Of a stretch of DNA of 64,000 nt, positions 5,682 to 20,105 are shown piece by piece. Every line of letters starts with the position of its first letter. Position 1 is the stretch's first letter. The notes beneath the pieces are model-generated. The model had not been told where the DNA came from. It was given only the letters and a program-made list of their open reading frames with translations, and made no database searches. A program made the translations under genes and the position numbers. Origin of the DNA: Mytilus galloprovincialis (Eukaryota > Mollusca > Bivalvia > Mytilida > Mytilidae); contig NC_134843.1 of the NCBI RefSeq assembly GCF_965363235.1, positions 4,092,001-4,156,000 of the forward strand, in the 5' to 3' direction.

Positions 5682-5860
5682 TGGTAATTTTTGAAATCTC
5701 AAGAAGAGATTTTATATGAATTTATAGGGTTAAATATACTTACCATGAAATTACATTTATATTATATAGAATATGTTTGCTTTCACAACATGTTCTCATC
5801 TTCTGGTATTCTTTTTCCGTCCACGTTGGGACAACCTCAATTGAGTACAGTTTTCTTCAC

Positions 5861-5877
5861 TATCTACAGACAACAGT
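5861..5877. repeat. Subterminal inverted 17-mer of the LINE (3' partner)
   Basis: TATCTACAGACAACAGT here is the exact reverse complement of 13196-13212. The two lie about 60-65 nt from the 3' and 5' ends of the LINE. In the minus-strand transcript they could pair as a panhandle. TATA/CATATA-rich DNA follows up to the RT stop. Confidence 0.6.
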
Positions 5878-6034
5878 AATCCGTCATCACAATAATGTCA
5901 ATTATATCCATCACCACATTTATATACACTATATATATACAACATATATATACATAATATCGATCACGGTAAAATTAGCACTAAATGTTCCCGGCACACT
6001 AACAATATACTTATTTCCTGTTAAAGACGCACAA

Positions 6035-9000
6035 TTATCTCTTCTTAATGTCCAACGTTCTATATCTAGCAACGTGAAGAGCATAAATCAACTGCCTTGA
6101 TAAATCTTCTATCCTTTGAAGTATTGTATTATCATTTGTATACCGAGAAAGTAACACGGTGCAGTCCAAGATAATTTGTAGTTGGTCATCAGTTGGTATG
6201 TCCCTCATTCTAAAGTTCAAGAAATCAGAGATAATTTCATCGATTTGGTTAAGATATCTTTCTCTAATGCATTGGAGTATTTTACATGTAAGCAAAAAAT
6301 GAGAACGATCTTCGATATCTGTATCACATAATTTACAAGTAGGAGTCTCATTTAGATTATATCTTGATCTATGAGATTGTAAAATGTACGTATCAGTAAT
6401 AACCTTTAGTTTCACAGATATTCGGACAGCTTCTCTCGTTGGGTCACTTGTATTTCCAATGGATAATAATGTATGGCATTTTCCTGGTGAAATGTTCGAG
6501 ATCCCAAGATATTTCAGAGATTTATAAGTACAGCTCTTTTGTATTAATGCATTTTTCCAGTAATGGTCAATTGCTAAACGAACGGATTTCTTCCAAGAAT
6601 ATTTTGTTGGTGGGTCGTTTAGAAGTACGATTGGTGATTGTAGATCGTATTTGAATAGTACCCTCTTGATCGCTATGAACCAGCTATTACTTTCTTGATT
6701 TTTTGCTATTAATTGCCTCCTTGCTATTTTCTTTTCTAAATGGTTTTCATTTTGGTTACAGATGTTGTTGAATAAATTTAATGATTTTTGATCAATTTGA
6801 GCTTCTATAGGTAAAATGCCAGACATGATGTAAATACTAGGATCAGGAGCTGATATAGGAACGGATAAAATTTGTTTTAATATTTTCTTCTGAAATGTTT
6901 CTAATTTAAGTAGGTTTTTTGAAGTTGGTAGTATGACTTCGAGACCATAGGTTAAGATGGGTTGTACGAAGGTTTTGAATAGTTGAATAGCAGTACTAGG
7001 ATCAAGTCCATTTTCTCCATGCATACCGGCTGACATTAAGCTGTACGCGGCTCTTCTTGATTTGGTGATGTTCTGTTCAATGGTAGCATCTTGTGTTTTT
7101 TGACTGGTTGTTGATCTTAAGATGCCCAAATGTGGAGATTTATCTGAAATTGGCATTGCATTGTTGTTTATATATATTCTTACTGGATCCTCAGATTTTT
7201 TTCGGTTTGAGGGTTGTACTTGTATAACTACGCTTTTTTGTGGCTGTAAGAGATAGTGATGATCTTCACTGTATTGTGCAGCAATATTCACAAGGTATTG
7301 TAGTTCATGTGGGTTTTCGCTAACAATTGCTACGTCGTCAGCACACGCTACTGCATTAATTAGCGTTTCACCTATCTCACATCCAGATGTAGTATTTTCA
7401 AATGTACTAAGAAGATCTTCGATATATACCTTATATAGGTCTGCGCTCAATAAACCGCCTTGTTTAACTCCTTGTAGAACTGAAAATTTTTCTGAGATTT
7501 CGGTTGACCATTTTATTCGAGATTCTGTGTTCTTATGGATTTCATCGATCAGTAGCCAAGATGATGGATCAGTGCCTGATATATATACTTTTCTTAACAA
7601 CATTTTTAGAACAACAACATCAAAAGCTGACTTTGCATCCAGTAGTACTATATAGAAAGGTAATTTTTTGTCCATATATTCCCTATACACTTCTTCTAAA
7701 ATAATAGCAGCATTCAGAGGTGATGTATTTGCCGTGAAGCCTTTTTGAAGTATGGACTGTAATTTTAGAGAGCCAGATCTTAGGTCTATACGTAAAATAA
7801 ATTCAATGATCTTCAAAAGTATGGGAAGGACTGTTATTCCACGATAATATTTGGCATCGTTTTTGTCTCCCTTGTTTTTAAATACTGGTGATAATAACCC
7901 TGTTTTGATGATGTCAGGAAGTACCCTATCTTGGAACATTCGATTTATCAGTTTATGCAAAAATAATTTAAATTGTTGTCCGGCATATAACACATTTTCA
8001 ATAGATATACCAAATACATCTTCAGCTTTTCCTTTATTGATTGATTTTATAGCTTTCTCGATAGTGTCTAAATCTACATATCTGGTAGCATAATGTTCAC
8101 TTATCCTTTTTATAGAGACATAATCCATTTCACATAGTGCTAAATGTTGATAGTTAAAGTCAGGATGTTCAGATGGAATAGCAAGTTTACTAAAATGTTG
8201 GTTCCAGCCTTTTAAAATATCATTTCTCTCAAATATTTCATTTTCAACGTGTAGATCATTGATAAAGGTGTTTCCGTTTTGCCTCTGTTTCCGTATTAAT
8301 TTAAAAAATTTCTGTTTATCATTTTGATTGTAATTAATAATGTCATTTCTTTCGTTATGCTTTCTTCTGATTTCTTCATTTCTAATGGCTGTCCTGAAGT
8401 TTTTTCTAGTGAGTTTCTTTTCTGTTAAAAGTATATTATCAATATTTGGGGGTCTACCGGCTGATTTCCAGTTTTTAAATGCCAATTTATTTGCTTCTAA
8501 TGATTCCGAAATTTCTTTGTTCCACACATTGAGTTTTAATTTATTTTTCCCATACGTTTTCTTCTGGTCCAGCTGTTTTGCAGTATTAGACAAGAGGTCC
8601 ATTGCTTGAAGGGTAATCACTTCTATATTAACCTTATCGGAGTTTAACCTTTCTACAAAATCTCCAATATTTCTGCTGATAGTCTCTTCATACCTAGGTT
8701 TGTCCACCTTATTCCATCTAATTTTGTGTTTTTGTTTTTCAGAGTTCCTTGATTGTTGTTCTCGAGTAATGTTACATTTGATTCGCATTGATATAGGATG
8801 ATGGTCTGATACATTAGATGGTAAATCAATCAGTCTTTTCGATGGTTCACACTTTGGATCAGTATATAGAAAATAGTCAATTTCAGATGTATCAATACCA
8901 TTTACATTTATAAAAGTGAGGCCTTTAGAGTTAGTTTTCAAATTACATTCCACCATTAAATCGTTGAGTTTATGTTTGCGTCTGCTGTTATTGGATGGAT

Positions 9001-9604
9001 TGTATAGATCTTCATTAAGGTCTCCTCCGACTATAATTTCATGGGTCCCACCATACTTTTGTACAATTTCGTAAATCTGGTCTAAACAGTCTAAAAATAT
9101 GTCGTAGCTATCATTTGAGGATTTTGTAGGAAGGTATGCTGATATAATTATCTGTGGTTTATCTATGGTTAATTCGATACATTGTAATCTACTTGATCCG
9201 TCAGGCAGTGGTTTAATATAACGGTCTATTGATTTTTGCCAAAGCACTGCTACACCACCATATCCACGAGGCACATGAGAGGCCGCAATTGGGTTATCTG
9301 AATCTACTGCTTTTCCGACACCTACTAATTTCGGGTGTAGTTCTTTTAATTGTTCTAGTTCGAAATGAAATAGCCAGTGTTCTTGAATTAATATAATATC
9401 TATGGATTTCTCTATTTCTTGGAAGAATTGACCTGTAGTTTTTATGTTTTTACAGTTAAACGATAGAATGTTTAGAGTGTCTTGATTGTTGTTGTTGCAC
9501 TCTATGTTTCTTTCTCGGTGACTAGAGGTTAGGTCAGTCTGTTTACCATGCGATTCAACTCTAAAAAAGAATTGGTAGTTGTCGTTAGGTAATCCTGACT
9601 TGCA
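6035..9604 (-). CDS. LINE endonuclease-reverse transcriptase frame
   Basis: This open frame would provide target nicking and reverse transcription. The N-terminus (from about 9455) carries the AP-like endonuclease start LNILSFNCKN and QEHW, then GGDLNED and SDHHP catalytic blocks. The RT part has DAKSAFDVV (motif A), QGVKQGGLLS and ACADDVAI, where CADD replaces the usual YADD/FADD. A CKLC...H...C zinc knuckle lies near the C-terminus, as in CR1/Jockey/I-group elements. About 1,189 codons are open, but there is no ATG between the upstream stop (9605-9607) and the endonuclease start, and the first alternative start (GTG, 9274) would remove its beginning. Expression as a -1 fusion from the overlapping PHD ORF explains this. 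Confidence 0.9.
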   Translation of the reverse strand, partial: CKSGLPNDNYQFFFRVESHGKQTDLTSSHRERNIECNNNNQDTLNILSFNCKNIKTTGQFFQEIEKSIDIILIQEHWLFHFELEQLKELHPKLVGVGKAVDSDNPIAASHVPRGYGGVAVLWQKSIDRYIKPLPDGSSRLQCIELTIDKPQIIISAYLPTKSSNDSYDIFLDCLDQIYEIVQKYGGTHEIIVGGDLNEDLYNPSNNSRRKHKLNDLMVECNLKTNSKGLTFINVNGIDTSEIDYFLYTDPKCEPSKRLIDLPSNVSDHHPISMRIKCNITREQQSRNSEKQKHKIRWNKVDKPRYEETISRNIGDFVERLNSDKVNIEVITLQAMDLLSNTAKQLDQKKTYGKNKLKLNVWNKEISESLEANKLAFKNWKSAGRPPNIDNILLTEKKLTRKNFRTAIRNEEIRRKHNERNDIINYNQNDKQKFFKLIRKQRQNGNTFINDLHVENEIFERNDILKGWNQHFSKLAIPSEHPDFNYQHLALCEMDYVSIKRISEHYATRYVDLDTIEKAIKSINKGKAEDVFGISIENVLYAGQQFKLFLHKLINRMFQDRVLPDIIKTGLLSPVFKNKGDKNDAKYYRGITVLPILLKIIEFILRIDLRSGSLKLQSILQKGFTANTSPLNAAIILEEVYREYMDKKLPFYIVLLDAKSAFDVVVLKMLLRKVYISGTDPSSWLLIDEIHKNTESRIKWSTEISEKFSVLQGVKQGGLLSADLYKVYIEDLLSTFENTTSGCEIGETLINAVACADDVAIVSENPHELQYLVNIAAQYSEDHHYLLQPQKSVVIQVQPSNRKKSEDPVRIYINNNAMPISDKSPHLGILRSTTSQKTQDATIEQNITKSRRAAYSLMSAGMHGENGLDPSTAIQLFKTFVQPILTYGLEVILPTSKNLLKLETFQKKILKQILSVPISAPDPSIYIMSGILPIEAQIDQKSLNLFNNICNQNENHLEKKIARRQLIAKNQESNSWFIAIKRVLFKYDLQSPIVLLNDPPTKYSWKKSVRLAIDHYWKNALIQKSCTYKSLKYLGISNISPGKCHTLLSIGNTSDPTREAVRISVKLKVITDTYILQSHRSRYNLNETPTCKLCDTDIEDRSHFLLTCKILQCIRERYLNQIDEIISDFLNFRMRDIPTDDQLQIILDCTVLLSRYTNDNTILQRIEDLSRQLIYALHVARYRTLDIKKR

Positions 9605-11553
9605 TTAGAGATGGTCATGGTTTGAGCAGGATGATGCTGTATATTTTGTTTCTTTAGAGGATAGTTAATGTTCGGAGGCGGATGGTTGATGTTCGGAGGT
9701 GGTTGGAAGTATATTGGTTGTCCCATTATATGATGTGTTTCTGGTCTTTGAATATTAAGAGGGCCGGTATATTGTGGTAGATGGCCATTTCTAGGTAGTA
9801 TGGGAGTGTTGTGCTCCTCAAAGTTCACATCTGTATCAAGTTGGACGGATGGTTTCGCTATGTTTTGCTGTGGTATATTTACATTTTGGTTTTGACCTGA
9901 TGATGGTGCCTGTGTAGCCTTATGTGGTGATTTATCAAACTTTTCATTTTCAAAGTTAAAATTTCCTTCCATTTTGGATAACTGTGTATCTATTTGACGT
10001 AAAATAAAGTTGGAGACTCTGTCTTGCAGGTTGTTTAATAGGAAATTATTATCCTTTGGGGTACTTCTAACATGTTGATCATCTTGGTTAGTGTGTACTA
10101 TTGTCGGGTTGCTGCTTTCCGTTCTATGTATTAATTGTACATCTTTTCGTAATATCTCGTTTGATCTCTCGAGCTCTTTGATTCTAGTTTCTAATTTATG
10201 TATGTGAGATTGAAACCACGTTCTTTCATTCTTCGTCTCTTCCAACATTCTTTCTCTAAGTTTTACCTCTTCCTCACGCTTACGTAACTTTGTCTCTCTT
10301 TGCCTCAATTCAGCTTGTTTAATTTCCTTTGGATCTACGATGTTCTCTTTCTGTGTTACAGCTGTGTTGTTGCTACTGTATGTATTTTTCACAGTTGTAT
10401 TTTCTTCGTCATCATTCCTTGTAGAATTAACATTTAGCGGAGTAGCTGGAGTACTAATATCAACTACATCTGGTTCATTGGTGTTTGACGAGTCAGTTCT
10501 TTGATCCATATTGCCTATACAGTTGGTACATATGCTTGTATCATCGCTCTCTTTGTTACGTGTAATACACATTTGGTGACAGGGTAAGGTACATACTTCA
10601 CAGTTGATAATGACACCATCTATCTGTAGATTACATATGCAGCAATCCAATTGTAGCTCTTCGTTTAGAATGTCCCTTGCAGAGTGTAAACATTCAATTT
10701 CTGGAGGAGGCTTTAACATCAGATTTTGTATTCTATTTTTACTAACACATGGTTCTGTACATTTTTTACATGTGTAGGCATTGTCACTAGTATTATTTTC
10801 TATTTTGTGAATGTCATCTTCATTTAAATAGTCACATCTGTAGTGAATCCAGTGTTTACCAGTAGTACAAAGAACCCCTCTTGTCTGAACGTTACGTCCG
10901 CATTTTACACATTTAATAGAGATTGTCTCACTGTTTTGTTTAGATATTACAGTATCTTTAATGGTGACTGCAGTATGGGAGGTATTAATGCTAGAGTCCT
11001 GACTGGAGTTTGTTGGCGAGTTCCTCATATTTGATAGTTGTTGCAATTGTTCTTCTAATTGGTTATTGAGTGTTTGAAGATTTACTCGGTTACCATTTAG
11101 GACTACATTTTTGATGGTATTATGTATATTAGGTAGGTCGGTTTTCATGAACCTCTCTGTATCTTTCCCATTGACTAGTAAGCGGCAAGTCGTGTAGTAT
11201 GCTGACAATGTATAGATGTGGGTTTGGTCTATGTACATACGAAATATCATGCTGATAACAAGACCTTTTTTATCCTGGTCTTGTACTGTTTTTACAGTAA
11301 TGTTGTTATTCTCACTGTTGAGTTGTTGATAATAGTATATCAAAGCATTCTTTAATAGTTCGAAGGAAACAGCATCAGCTTCTCCTGTAATACCTCCCCC
11401 TGTAAATTTATAGATGATATTTGCTTGGCGCTTTGCAGCTTGAAGTTTCCGAGCAATCGCCCTATCTAAATTTAGCTCAAAGTCATTGTATCGTAAATTT
11501 TCAGTTCTAGGGTTGGTACTTGTATGTATTCCCTGTTTGCTAATGCTTGTCAT
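9529..11553 (-). CDS. LINE ORF with two PHD-type fingers and coiled coil
   Basis: 674 aa. An N-terminal region of unknown fold (about 20-150) precedes a PHD-type finger at about 215-265 (CVKC, then HWIHYRC, then CKKC) and a second cysteine/histidine cluster at 304-345 (CCIC, CEVC, CHQMC, CTNC). A charged heptad-like coiled coil follows (about 415-475), then a Pro/Asn/Gln-rich tail. This matches a LINE ORF1-type RNA-binding/multimerising protein; PHD fingers are known in CR1-group ORF1s. Its last 76 nt overlap the endonuclease-RT frame in the -1 register. The start at 11553 follows the second hairpin by about 105 nt. Confidence 0.85.
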   Translation of the reverse strand: MTSISKQGIHTSTNPRTENLRYNDFELNLDRAIARKLQAAKRQANIIYKFTGGGITGEADAVSFELLKNALIYYYQQLNSENNNITVKTVQDQDKKGLVISMIFRMYIDQTHIYTLSAYYTTCRLLVNGKDTERFMKTDLPNIHNTIKNVVLNGNRVNLQTLNNQLEEQLQQLSNMRNSPTNSSQDSSINTSHTAVTIKDTVISKQNSETISIKCVKCGRNVQTRGVLCTTGKHWIHYRCDYLNEDDIHKIENNTSDNAYTCKKCTEPCVSKNRIQNLMLKPPPEIECLHSARDILNEELQLDCCICNLQIDGVIINCEVCTLPCHQMCITRNKESDDTSICTNCIGNMDQRTDSSNTNEPDVVDISTPATPLNVNSTRNDDEENTTVKNTYSSNNTAVTQKENIVDPKEIKQAELRQRETKLRKREEEVKLRERMLEETKNERTWFQSHIHKLETRIKELERSNEILRKDVQLIHRTESSNPTIVHTNQDDQHVRSTPKDNNFLLNNLQDRVSNFILRQIDTQLSKMEGNFNFENEKFDKSPHKATQAPSSGQNQNVNIPQQNIAKPSVQLDTDVNFEEHNTPILPRNGHLPQYTGPLNIQRPETHHIMGQPIYFQPPPNINHPPPNINYPLKKQNIQHHPAQTMTISNASQDYLTTTTNSFLELNRMVNRLT
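9562..9568 (-). promoter_or_regulatory. Putative -1 frameshift heptamer T TTT TTA
   Basis: In the PHD ORF the codons are TCT TTT TTA GAG, so T TTT TTA sits in exactly the register needed for -1 slippage. Slippage continues as AGA GTT GAA in the endonuclease-RT frame, 31 nt before the PHD stop (9529-9531). T TTT TTA is a classic slippery sequence. I see no strong downstream stem by eye, only short TGAC/GTCA pairings. Confidence 0.7.
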
Positions 11554-11658
11554 GATGTATCAAGGTTATTATTTACCTTTAGTTGAGTAGTTGCTTAAAG
11601 AATATCGTGTCGGGTTATTATTTATTCACTTTTAGTTGTAATCAGAACTATATTTTAA

Positions 11659-11688
11659 CAGCGTGGCTTGGATATCCCATGCCTTCTG
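11659..11688 (-). ncRNA. Conserved hairpin core, copy 1 (before PHD ORF)
   Basis: On the minus strand the 30-nt core is CAGAA, GGCATGGGATATCCAAGCC, ACGCTG. GGC/GCC and TGG/CCA pair around a GATAT loop with an A-A mismatch, and CAG/CTG closes it. Flanks extend the stem (AACAG/CTGTT, then CTATA/TATAG). It lies 30 nt after the SGNH stop and about 105 nt before the PHD start. Possible roles are internal translation start, RNA packaging or processing. Confidence 0.7.
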
Positions 11689-11717
11689 TTTTTATAGTCT
11701 GCTTTACAACTATGATA

Positions 11718-12521
11718 TTAATACCAACAGTCTTTCTGTATTAAGTCTGAAATTTGACCAAGCCAGGCTTTAGCGAGTAGTCTTTTTGGATGTATACCAT
11801 CAGAATATAAATTGTAGTTTATGTATTTTTCAGTCGGTTTACTTTTCCCTCTTGACCTTTGTCGCCTACTTTGTAGATGGATAGAGAAGCAGGGAGATTT
11901 TGTTCCGAGAGTACTATTCAAATATTTAATACCGTCGTTGACTTTGACTATTTGTTGTTGAAGTTGTGTTTCTTGTTCTGTATATTTATCTATAATATCT
12001 GATTGTGCCACTAAGTCGGTGTGATTGTTATTGCCGTCCTTGTGGTTGTTTTGTTTTTTATTGTTGATCTTTGAGGCTATTTTCTGATTATATTTAATGA
12101 TGGAATATGGTGGTATTTCAAGTATTGTGATCTTGGAATGTGGATATTTCTTTACAATATCAATGCACTCATGAAATTTGTCTAAGATGAGTTGAACTGT
12201 ATCATCACTTGTAGATCTTAGAGAGATGTAACCATTCTTGTCCCTTGTAGTGAGGTTACAGGTACCTGACCATATGTATATACTGATATCACCGACTTGT
12301 TTGACTTTGTTGTTTATATTTGTTTTAAGCCACTTTAATTGATCTTGGATAGTCGTGCCTGATTTACACTGCCAGTGTATATTTTTGTCAAGTGAATGTA
12401 CAACCTGATCTCTTAAGTATGAACCTTTGCTGTCAGATATAATGATTGGTGCTAAATGTTGTGTACCAGTTAGAGGTTTGCGTGGAATTTGTAAGTATTT
12501 AATCAATTTTGCCTCGGTCAT
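11718..12521 (-). CDS. LINE ORF: SGNH/GDSL-type hydrolase
   Basis: 267 aa. Block I is APIIISDSKGSYL with the candidate nucleophile Ser31. A GTCN segment (about 87-90) fits the oxyanion-hole block. Near the end SDGIHPKRLLAKAW (Asp241, His244) matches the SGNH Asp-x-x-His block. This resembles the esterase domain known in CR1-group LINE ORF1s, but here it is a separate ORF and comes first. The middle is Lys/Asn/Gln-rich. The ATG at 12521 lies about 220 nt after the first hairpin. Its role in retrotransposition is unknown; lipid or membrane interaction has been suggested for such domains. Confidence 0.8.
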   Translation of the reverse strand: MTEAKLIKYLQIPRKPLTGTQHLAPIIISDSKGSYLRDQVVHSLDKNIHWQCKSGTTIQDQLKWLKTNINNKVKQVGDISIYIWSGTCNLTTRDKNGYISLRSTSDDTVQLILDKFHECIDIVKKYPHSKITILEIPPYSIIKYNQKIASKINNKKQNNHKDGNNNHTDLVAQSDIIDKYTEQETQLQQQIVKVNDGIKYLNSTLGTKSPCFSIHLQSRRQRSRGKSKPTEKYINYNLYSDGIHPKRLLAKAWLGQISDLIQKDCWY

Positions 12522-12743
12522 GAATGGTTGATAAGATATAGTATATTGCTAGTGTGCGTTAGTGGATAAGTAGTTGGTTTATACAAGCTAAGCAGTTATC
12601 TATGCAGTATATATATATATAGTCTAAGTAAGCTGTGCCACTACTAAGCTTCTATATAAAAATAATAAATGATTTGTCTAAGTTGTTTCACACTTTCAAG
12701 ATAAAAAGTTCAGAGTTCGTATGTAAATAGTACCATCAGCAAG

Positions 12744-12773
12744 CAGCGTGGCTTGGATATCCCATGCCTTCTG
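12744..12773 (-). ncRNA. Conserved hairpin core, copy 2 (LINE leader before SGNH ORF)
   Basis: Identical over 30 nt to the core at 11659-11688. Its flanks are unrelated to those of copy 1 but are again complementary to each other: on the minus strand AATAGTACATCAACAG before and CTTGCTGATGGTACTATT after. Two identical loops on different self-complementary arms suggest the structure is under selection. Confidence 0.7.
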
Positions 12774-13195
12774 CTGTTGATGTACTATTACAGCGTTAAA
12801 AATATTTTATGACTCAAGTTTATTCCAGATAATATACTAAAATGAATAAAATCGTGTTGTGGTTGATCACTGTGCTAGGATATTTATTTACACACGGTCC
12901 TTCACAGCTCGGAAATATTCACGTAATGAGTAAAAAGTTAAAAGTACAGGATGATTATAATCAAATAATATATATTTAATCTTTCCTTCGAAATTAGTTC
13001 ATGAATATAGGTTGCTAGTGATGTATCATAAAATTTCTTAAAAAGTTTGTTGAATTTTCAAAATGGCTGCCACATGTGTTTCACTTTCTCGGATAAAAAG
13101 TTCTCAATAAAAGGTAAAATTCGTTTTCACCGTTGTTCAGAAATGAATATTTAGGTGTATGCAGGGTCACTCATGACATAAAAGTATATTCTGCA

Positions 13196-13212
13196 ACTGT
13201 TGTCTGTAGATA
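13196..13212. repeat. Subterminal inverted 17-mer of the LINE (5' partner)
   Basis: ACTGTTGTCTGTAGATA, the reverse complement of 5861-5877. It lies in the LINE leader upstream of the first hairpin. The leader (12774-13277) has no other feature I can name. Confidence 0.6.
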
Positions 13213-13440
13213 AAAGTTGATAAAAGTAGAATTTTCCACCACCATATAAAAACACGTCCGTCACCATGAAATCTCGCGCAATTAACTAGGTGATTAAAAA
13301 TTACATCCATGAGATGTACTCACCTACGTCATAGTTCACCTGTGTAACATACACTAGCTTTAGTTTTAATTTGTCGTTTAATTGAATAATTTCAATTAAG
13401 TGAACAAAAAACTGAATTTATTCCAGGGGTGGTGGTGGAT

Positions 13441-13567
13441 TGTGGTAAGTATATTTAACCCTATAAATTCATATAAAATCTCTTCTTGAGATTTCAAAAA
13501 TTACCATTTTATATGAATTTGGTTAAATATACTTACCATGAAATTACATTTATATTATATAGAATAT
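13441..13567. repeat. Head-to-head pair of transposon tips inside the large transposon
   Basis: The left arm (13441-13505) is the exact reverse complement of the 65 bp at 5681-5745, including the outer AAATCTCAAGAAGAG flank. The right arm repeats the TTTATATGAATTTGG, ATACTTACC and ATATTATATAGAATAT tip in the forward sense. The whole forms an imperfect palindrome around about 26 bp, as if tips of two related elements meet. A small perfect hairpin (TTAATTGAA/TTCAATTAA) lies at about 13379-13400. Confidence 0.6.
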
Positions 13568-16929: not shown

Positions 16930-18496
16930 ACATCCGTTTAAAAATATATGGGTCATTTTCAAAAAATGTCGAATTTTGAAATTGAAAAAATTATTAAAAG
17001 ATACTTATTTAAACAACCCTCTACATAAGCAAATCAAAACAAACAGTACTTTAAGAACAACATATTAAAAGATGCAATCTTAATGATGTCATACAAAAAT
17101 ATGTTGAAACATTTTTTGATCGGTGGTACATTATTTTGTCTATCCTGTTACCATTTTCAAAAGAAATTTTGGGTTATTAAGAAAAGGTTTAGATAAAATG
17201 TTAAGCTTGTTTTACGTAGACAATTAGATGGTTTTCAAGAGAATAAACTTCTATATATATTCATTCTGTAATATAATAGATTATTTGCCAATTTAACAGG
17301 TTGTACTGAAAAATGCCTCTAAAAATTGGTTTTCAAAGGTTGTAAAAATTACCACCAGTAATGCAAGTCTAAGATAGCAATTTATATTGTTCGGCATTTT
17401 TTCACCCTTTCAAATAAACCCAACATCAAGTAAATCCCTCATAAGTTAGTTTACTTTTCTCTATATTTCATTGGTAACAGGAACGTACGTTTCTGATATA
17501 TTACTATATAAAAGTCTATCCTGTTACCTTTTTGTCTATCCTGTTACCGATATCAGTATTGCACCTGCGAATGCTTAATTGGGAAGATTAATACGTTATA
17601 ACCTTAAGATGACTTCAAACAACGAAATATTTCATTCGTTTTGCACCTATATGTTAAGATAAAAAAATTAACGACGTTTTTGTCTACAATTGTCTATCCT
17701 GTTACTGTAACCATAGCAACCATAGTAACAGGATAGACATAACAGGATAGACAAATTTCTTCGTTTTTGATTGCTGTTGTGACGTAACTACTCCCTTTGA
17801 TGAAGTGATTATGTTTTTCTATTGTGAATTTGGTTTCCAACACGTTATTGCACTTTTTACAAGTATACTGTTGGTGTATTTAATCAAAATTGGTGGTAAC
17901 AGCATAGACATGAAAAAAAGTACGCTATATTTTTTTCACTAAATGTCTTGAAATTTCTTTTCTCTACACTTTCGTTCAAGAAAAGAGGCGTTTTAAATGT
18001 AAAGATTACTTTGCACTTTTGAGATCAACACCGACTGATTCAATATTCATAGGGAGAATAATTTCACGGCTGATTTAAGTAGCGGTAACAGGAAAGACAT
18101 GAACCTCCTGTACGCAGATTCAATTTAGTTTGTAGATAATATGTTACATACAATGATAATGAAGCTACGATTTTTCGTTAGAGTAATATTAAACGTTCTT
18201 AAAAAGTCCCTTTTGCAGATATCAAGGCGATCAGAAAATCGCAAAAAAATCATTTGAAATGTGTTTTTCTGACACTGTACGCAGACAAATACCCCCTAAA
18301 TGGGTCTTAAATGCAGTTTAATCTTATCAAAATAGATGTAAGGTGTGTTTATTATTAATGTTCTGAATCACAAATCCGACAAGCTTTCATTTAAACCATT
18401 ACGACTGAAATTTCCATTAGAAATAAAAAAGTTAGCATGGGTGTACTGAAAATTCGACATTTTTTGAAAACGACCCATATCTTTTTAAAAACGTAG
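16930..18496. repeat. Foldback with eight convergent GTCTATCCTGTTAC motifs
   Basis: The ends are inverted complements: ATGGGTCATTTTCAAAAAAT then GTCGAATTTT at 16947, against AAAATTCGAC then ATTTTTTGAAAACGACCCAT at 18448-18480. Inside, GTCTATCCTGTTAC occurs forward at 17138, 17514, 17534 and 17692, and reversed (GTAACAGGATAGAC or one-base variants) at 17725, 17740, 17895 and 18084. All motifs point towards about 17715. No ORF is present. The pattern would suit protein-binding sites. Confidence 0.75.
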
Positions 18497-18772: not shown

Positions 18773-20105
18773 GCCGACGAGAAACATGCGTTCTCTTGAA
18801 CGCAAAAATTAAAACTAAAGCTAGTGTATGTTACACAGGTGAACTATGACGTAGGTGAGTACATCTCATGGATGTAATTTTTAATCACCTAGTTAATTGC
18901 GATGAGAACATGTTGTGAAAGCAAACATATTCTATATAATATAAATGTAATTTCATGGTAAGTATATTTAACCAAATTCATATAAAATGATAACTTGTAC
19001 ACAACATATATATATACACATAAAGTCATAAGAACCAAACATTTAGTAAACGGATGCAACAAAAAACGACACTATCGTTAAAACAAACATCTAATACATA
19101 CATAAAAGGAAAGTACTTTTAATTCTATACAATAATTTCAGGCATTTTGTAAAATGCATGGAAAAATAATTCATTATGTAAAATGACTGAATCTTGCACG
19201 CATTTTATAAAATACCTAAAGTTTTCAGGCATTTTACAAAATGCCTAAATTTAGAAAATGTCTGTAACAAATACAAAGTTTTTCATAATTCGAAAAGTAA
19301 GGCTCCTGGTGACCGTGGTATCTTTGTTACTTTAGCATTTTTAAAAAAATCAGTTATCTCAAAAGTACATCATCTTCTTACCAAATACGTACTTCGTTTC
19401 CTGTGTTACAAACCTTAGATAAAGCCGACGAGGAATAGCATAACATCGATCACCGAAAGCTATATTATTAGCAAATACAATGTATATATATTATGGTGTT
19501 AGCCATATACTTCAATTGTTCATTTTCTTAGTGCATGGTATTGTTTAAGGAAGTTAATAAACCAGTTTGATAAATCTGTTTCTTTTTTCTTACCTTTTCC
19601 GTCTGTTATAAATGAAATGGATATTATCACTGCTGTGCAGTTCTATGACATGTATTAAATTGCATTCACGGTTCGGTCGCAATGCTTGATGAACCATTAC
19701 TTAATGTATTATAGTGAGTTCTCTGTTTAATCCAAACTTATAATTTTATGTTGGTGATAACTAGCCAAAGGTTTTAACCTGTTTGTCCAAATTATAATAG
19801 GTTCCCGAAACTGGATAGTACAAATTTAGCATTTAAAAAATTATGTATGCAAAGTCGCTTAATCAAATATGCCGCTAGTTTACACTTTGTGTTGTCACGT
19901 GATATGTTTAATGGTGTTTGAACCTTGTCGAGTTTGATTCTACTTCCTTGTAGAATGTATTTGTAAATGTTTCTTTATCTGTTTCACGTTATTTTATTAT
20001 GTGTTATGTTCATGTAAATCAAGCGAAAAATTATATTATATTGTTTTGACAGCAGTTTGCGATTCACTGCTGAAAATCCCTAGATAGTGCAAGTGAACAA
20101 GTGGG

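Follow-up and report, generated by a model that had tools for sequence, protein, structure and literature searches.

Repeated hairpins in the RNA of mussel three-ORF LINEs as a possible element-specific recognition signal

The window analysed here, a 64,000-nucleotide stretch of Mytilus galloprovincialis contig NC_134843.1 (positions 4,092,001 to 4,156,000 of the forward strand, assembly GCF_965363235.1), carries a LINE on its minus strand. The probable extent of the element is 5801-13276, with boundaries inferred from a repeat split around it and from the end of identity with another copy at 13276. The two parts of the repeat, 5709-5800 and 13277-13381, match 18988-18901 and 18901-18796, respectively. 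The other copy, at C7:3.136 Mb, is 99% identical and retains both hairpins described below, with one base differing in the second 30-mer. Along the minus strand, the order is a 5' UTR with hairpin copy 1, an SGNH ORF, 29 nt, hairpin copy 2, a PHD ORF, and a frame for endonuclease and reverse transcriptase (EN-RT). The short repeat near 18.9 kb (18796-18988) has a further, partly inverted copy at 13443-13567. Elsewhere in the window, the 14-nt motif GTCTATCCTGTTAC occurs eight times across both strands within 1 kb (17134-18103), three times with one mismatch.

The first ORF (11718-12521, minus strand) encodes a protein of 267 aa resembling SGNH-fold hydrolases. Its AlphaFold2 model has a pLDDT of 90, and Foldseek matches the model to GDSL/SGNH hydrolases (best E 2.6e-6, probability 1.00, TM-score 0.55/0.69). 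In an alignment of 10 sequences, S31 and H244 are invariant and D241 is near-invariant, while the Asn position holds N or D. These data support an SGNH/GDSL fold with the catalytic Ser, Asp, and His retained, and the protein is a predicted hydrolase. At the thresholds used, the only Pfam family returned for the protein was VPS51, at E 0.35. The second ORF (9529-11553, minus strand) encodes 674 aa, with RING/PHD-like zinc fingers below the Pfam cut-offs and an N-terminal domain of unknown fold. This domain (10954-11553) is conserved across families. For the window protein, Pfam matched nothing in this domain above cut-off, and neither a PDB sequence search (E<=1) nor a fold search (E<=0.001) returned a match. 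The EN-RT frame (6035-9529, minus strand) matches endonuclease and reverse transcriptase above cut-off and zf-RVT below it, and it remains open further upstream, overlapping the 3' end of the second ORF.

Copy 1 of a 30-nt core occupies 12744-12773 on the minus strand, in the 5' UTR and 222 nt before the SGNH ATG, inside a predicted hairpin at 12722-12792. Copy 2 lies at 11659-11688 on the same strand, 29 nt after the SGNH stop and inside a predicted hairpin at 11633-11712; the ends of both hairpins are taken from the fold. An earlier sequence-only reading had reported the two 30-nt stretches as identical and had placed one before the SGNH ORF and the other just after its stop, ahead of the PHD ORF. 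Both points are borne out. A search of the whole window with a 29-mer of the core, allowing up to three mismatches, returned these two sites only and nothing in 100 dinucleotide shuffles. On the sense strand, copy 1 folds at -28.2 kcal/mol (z -4.16) and copy 2 at -27.9 kcal/mol (z -6.00), with none of 200 shuffles as good in either case. The opposite strand folds at least as well, at -35.1 (z -6.31) and -30.6 (z -6.02). The same reading had described flanks that diverged yet stayed self-complementary. Each site does form one long hairpin, and arm-swap scores (30.5 and 18.0 for own arms, 18.5 and 16.0 for swapped arms) reveal an own-arm advantage that is clear for the 5'-UTR copy and slight for the other.

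Further copies were sought in the window's own assembly (1.38 Gb, 331 contigs). With up to three mismatches, a 24-nt core matched 28 sites against none in the reversed control, and a looser pattern matched 45 sites against two; both searches derive from the window core. Among the 28 sites, 25 come 36-252 nt downstream of an SGNH ORF or of its C-terminal portion, two are the 5' copies of the window family, and one (L005) has no SGNH match and is directly followed by a reverse transcriptase match. The DNA after the stop of 70 SGNH loci, a set that includes near-identical copies, holds hairpins of the same build with other cores. The types comprise I (GGCAUGG..CCAAGCC), Ib (UGCAUGG..CCAAGCU), II (AGYGYGG..CCRCGCU and kin), and III and IV (GUGGG..CCAC). 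Three further core patterns matched 138, 68, and 26 sites, each with none in the reversed control. A related hairpin core is present in 59 of the 70 SGNH-ORF LINE loci, mostly just after the ORF, compared with 0-2 in ten shuffled sets; the count is descriptive, since the patterns were drawn from the loci that they count. No core was recognised in the remaining 11 loci, three of which (L096, L100, and L101) have sites beyond the 441-nt stretch. Two core patterns run against collections of genome contigs and of viral contigs, one pattern each, gave no match.

Strand and homology were addressed with several scans. A pattern scan, with patterns drawn from the loci counted, returned 375 matches in sense orientation, 99 of them distinct, and 50 in antisense, the latter all of type II. 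A descriptor scan found 29 of the 70 loci at threshold 9 (1.6 in shuffled sequence) and 18 at threshold 11 (none in shuffled sequence). Owing to the near-palindromic form of the hairpin, antisense matches were about as frequent (31 and 16, respectively). A covariance model of types I and II, applied to both strands of the window and of 30 long-flank loci, yielded 39 matches, all on the LINE sense strand, although many model sequences come from the same loci searched. It scores the window sites at 39.1 bits (12738-12778) and 41.8 bits (11653-11693), both sequences being part of the model. At E up to 0.1, it recovered only these two known copies in the 64-kb window, with none before the EN-RT ORF and none downstream. 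A model built from type II alone gave no match in the window, and its best match elsewhere, in type Ib, reached 13.3 bits (E 0.51). A covariance-model link between types I and II was sought and not found; as the type II model misses type I sites, homology between the types rests on position and geometry.

Thirty-one type I and II hairpins share a fold in which a lower stem (P1) and a 7-bp stem (P2) are separated by a short asymmetric internal loop, and 80.6% of the cells pair. The check for covarying pairs proposed in the sequence-only reading came out positive by the covariation score. The covariation score is 0.335, against 0.220 after shuffling (none of 500 as high) and at most 0.141 when slid, and type II alone scores 0.258 against 0.189 shuffled; all these scores are inflated by related rows. 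Covarying pairs include 7-36 (GC 16, AU 14), 11-31 (AU 24, GC 7), and 15-27 (UA 17, UG 9, CG 5). Across the 31 hairpins, there is no excess of pairs changed on both sides (7, with 7.8 in shuffled data) or of further pair types (25, with 24.8). The inner pairs (columns 6-17) hold 30 G.U against 9 A.C, an excess reached by 0.6% of shuffled partners, with 23 of the 30 G.U in two columns. This bias favours sense RNA over DNA at the inner pairs. No such bias is present outside, either in outer pairs 3-5 (8 G.U, 11 A.C) or in the outer arms of 47 hairpins (46 and 49). Over 47 non-redundant hairpins, own arms score a mean of 18.1 against 12.4 for swapped arms. The sequence-only reading had held that many copies lacking flank complementarity would speak against it, and this is partly what was found. 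P1 is firm over about 3-5 bp beside the core, pairing becomes weak further out (3-40 and 4-39 form in 11 and 14 of the 31), and in several multi-copy elements (e.g., L090 and L107) own arms pair no better than swapped ones. Among unpaired columns, one only (32, A) is invariant in the 31 sequences.

Three candidate explanations of the core itself were rejected. Dimerisation via the palindromic GGATATCC of the window core was dropped because that palindrome is absent from most other cores. Near-cognate start codons in P2 were judged by eye, and the AUG in the core of copy 2 leads into no more than a short frame. For a ribozyme of the twister-sister-like 'lantern' kind (PMC11620745), the loop did not match, and Rfam gave no match at gathering level in the window.

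The position of the hairpin was assessed for 230 sites among the matches listed of four pattern searches (36 of 45, 100 of 138, 68 of 68, and 26 of 26). Of these listed sites, 112 lie 0-3.5 kb 3' of an SGNH match, and four lie within 1 kb 5' of one, in two window-family elements and two others. Eleven more, in seven elements, lie 6.1-7.4 kb 3' of an SGNH match; judged by distance only and with the ORF lengths of the window element, they probably fall in the 3' UTR. Such sites in type Ib/II elements include C12:43924.5 kb and C5:97122.5 kb. The other 103 listed sites have no match from the SGNH list nearby. Some of these are still in LINEs, as sites at C4:75.27 and C4:75.29 Mb have SGNH ends and PHD matches, and a site at C6:3.099 Mb is followed by PHD and RT matches. 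On the sense strand of the 30 long-flank loci, 53 of 56 core matches start at least 690 nt after the start of the SGNH match and hence at about its end or later; two lie before the SGNH match and one inside it. The proposal that a hairpin precedes both LINE ORFs is therefore not the rule, with copies also 6.1-7.4 kb downstream and none before the EN-RT ORF of the window element. No downstream copy was found for the window element, nor among the sites listed for type I and for the L047 family. Ten solo pairs are spaced by 79-82 nt (six pairs) or 380-395 nt (four pairs), close to the spacing of downstream copies (79, 396, and 398 nt), and thus look like 3' ends of 5'-truncated copies.

Copy number also varies. 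Two elements each have at least nine sites (nine among those listed) within about 1.7 kb after the SGNH ORF. These arrays are probably all intercistronic, since the PHD match begins about 1.8 and 2.3 kb after the SGNH match in two related elements. Intercistronic regions span 95-570 nt in 11 elements measured, and as a whole they show no depletion of AUG. Three regions of type III (L052, L043, and L044) lack AUG where 2.9, 2.1, and 3.4 were expected, and the region of L059 has 12 where 6.8 were expected. Two arrays stand apart from recognised ORFs. At L088:1500-1810 (C9:17.190 Mb), four type I cores recur at an exact 95-nt spacing, like a small satellite made of hairpins, and neither SGNH nor PHD is matched within 1.5 kb. 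At C11:53013415-53013699, five type Ib-like cores are spaced by 52-104 nt, with no listed SGNH match nearby.

In multi-copy elements, the core is near-exact on different arms, as in L047 (four exact 32-nt copies) and L036 (three exact 30-nt copies). Within elements, core identity is 0.917 (29 pairs, minimum 0.64), with outer arms less than 0.5 identical. Between families it is 0.621 (104 pairs), and 0.784 among families of the same type (37 pairs), taking one locus per family, keeping the register, leaving out the apical loop, and using patterns drawn from the loci. Duplication within an element may postdate the split between families, and this alone would raise core identity, though the outer arms of such copies have diverged. 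All lineages occur in one host, where a host factor or the ribosome should have kept their cores similar; it is chiefly because the cores differ that we favour an element-encoded partner over a host or ribosomal factor.

From these sequence comparisons, we tentatively propose, at a little under an even chance, that the hairpin is an element-specific recognition signal in LINE RNA, read by an RNA-binding protein of the element. In this scheme, the variable lower stem P1 need only pair and would hold up the internal loop, the 7-bp P2 (frequently with a non-Watson-Crick pair about midway), and the small apical loop. The core would be bound by a protein from the element itself, and binding could single out the RNA of that element for RNP assembly or reverse transcription. 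With a copy mostly between the first two cistrons, the hairpin may also tune translation of the second. The sequences themselves show the hairpin, its covariation, its position, and cores that are nearly identical within elements and divergent between them; the protein partner, its encoding by the element, and both functions are what we infer here.

Two proteins are candidates for this partner. A tree of 15 SGNH sequences groups type II (0.84), types III/IV (1.00), and two Ib sequences (1.00). Those of type I, four in number, form a group (0.87) only if it takes in L037, an Ib fragment of 105 aa; if L037 is excluded, support is 0.08. L034, an apparent recombinant, combines a type I hairpin and SGNH ORF with a PHD ORF that belongs to the Ib side (support 0.975), and L033 has another gene layout with the same hairpin. 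At L033:2190-3690 (C4:67.945 Mb), the frame after SGNH ORF and hairpin reads LLLLLITLSGDIETNPGP, which we take to be a 2A-like ribosome-skipping motif, followed by a PHD-like finger and then an endonuclease frame. Below E 0.2, that downstream frame did not match the N-terminal domain usual for the PHD ORF. L034 and L033 point to the SGNH side, and physical linkage alone would also explain the co-inheritance of hairpin and SGNH ORF. The SGNH protein is slightly favoured as candidate partner. By precedent, ORF2p is a candidate as well: in zebrafish L2, it is described as recognising its cognate stem-loop strictly, the stem generally and the loop specifically, by a region between EN and RT (PMC4176376).

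Other explanations account for parts of these data. The hairpin might act in cis on translation, recruiting or retaining ribosomes after the SGNH stop so that the second ORF is reached by reinitiation or internal entry. Its usual place just 3' of that stop, the three AUG-free type III regions, and the unusual termination-reinitiation described for the LINEs SART1 and L1 (PMC5972666) are consistent with such a role. It is harder to reconcile with sites that precede the first ORF or lie 6.1-7.4 kb downstream, with the nine-site arrays, with the AUG-rich L059 region, and with the calicivirus UGGGA motif, which is contained in the window core but in only 16 of 48 distinct cores. A signal directed at the ribosome should also not vary between lineages of one host, and we regard this explanation as doubtful. 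The sequence-only reading had suggested an RNA element for start-site selection; conserved pairing and the tie to LINEs uphold the RNA element, whereas the failure to find a copy before the EN-RT ORF in the window, the number of sites after the SGNH ORF, the distant downstream copies, and the lack of general AUG depletion do not favour start-site selection. An unlikely alternative is a reverse-transcriptase recognition stem-loop of the stringent-LINE kind, ancestrally in the 3' tail, with the intercistronic and 5' copies being duplicates of it whose role is to tether ORF2p or to help in strand transfer. The cognate recognition described for zebrafish ORF2p (PMC4176376), the 11 far-downstream sites in seven elements, and the solo pairs resembling ends of truncated copies argue for it. 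Against it, no downstream copy was found for the window element or in the listed sites of type I and of the L047 family, and the hairpin near the end of the window element's 3' UTR is a different, weak one.

A cause at the DNA level would dispense with RNA function, cruciform-prone palindromes being homogenised by template switching. The good folding of the opposite strand, outer arms without G.U/A.C asymmetry, and arrays with 52- and 95-nt spacing agree with this, but homogenisation would need to end at the core and leave the arms to diverge, and the 30 G.U against 9 A.C at inner pairs run counter to it, so that we consider it improbable. Least probable, and by our estimate very much so, is a processing site at which a nuclease or self-cleavage splits the polycistronic RNA. 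Hairpins usually lie between cistrons, as such a site would; the single invariant unpaired column is unlike a catalytic core, Rfam gave no match at gathering level in the 64 kb and none at E<=10 in 11500-12950, and cleavage would presumably destroy the full-length template.

An element-specific recognition signal, our preferred reading, could be part of a broader arrangement that we consider rather unlikely as a whole. Three-ORF LINEs may carry a lineage-specific RNA address code, with repeated intercistronic hairpins read by the element's own protein and serving at once as packaging signal and second-cistron operator, by analogy with RNA phages. If so, many families in one genome would have diverged in their cores so that each mobilises its own RNA alone. 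The mechanism of cis preference, by which LINE proteins favour their own RNA, was called unknown for L1 in 2014 (PMC4176376), and LINE families with their own cores in one genome would make such preference testable by core swaps. Lineage-specific cores could also supply new orthogonal RNA-protein pairs.

Comparison with known systems places these hairpins near several described elements. A literature search, conducted mainly at title and abstract level and covering few subscription journals, found no report of intercistronic multi-copy LINE hairpins. The main text of a Jockey superfamily survey does not contain the word 'hairpin' (PMC4120745), and that of a bivalve transposon survey mentions no hairpin, PHD, or esterase (PMC10294476). 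According to the former, CR1/L2 LINEs also possess esterase and PHD modules, and the esterase ORF1 type occurs in two vertebrate groups only (PMC4120745); here, by contrast, SGNH and PHD are encoded by two successive, separate ORFs ahead of EN-RT. The TURBS of caliciviruses and influenza B, which couples two ORFs, likewise presents a short core on species-specific complementary arms, and it is described as lying upstream of an overlapping stop-start and requiring UGGGA (PMC5972666). The mussel hairpin lies downstream of the SGNH stop without ORF overlap, and identity with TURBS was rejected on this position and on the UGGGA motif, the complement of 18S helix 26. In MS2 phage, the TR stem-loop is described as operator of the downstream cistron, with further similar stem-loops in the RNA (PMC4751978). 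The position of window copy 2 would fit such an operator, by analogy rather than homology, in a eukaryotic LINE that has no capsid. Closest in kind is the 3'-tail stem-loop of stringent LINEs (zebrafish ZfL2-1 and ZfL2-2, eel UnaL2), also an element-specific hairpin in LINE RNA, whose stem is recognised generally and whose apical part is recognised specifically (PMC4176376). The same combination of a general stem with an element-specific apical part is seen here in the covarying stem and in the contrast of core identity within and between elements. In contrast to that tail, the mussel hairpins usually lie between ORFs, often in several copies, and none was found at the 3' end of the window element. 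The element-specific LINE stem-loop is thus known as a kind, whereas its intercistronic place and its copy number are new as far as this literature search reaches.
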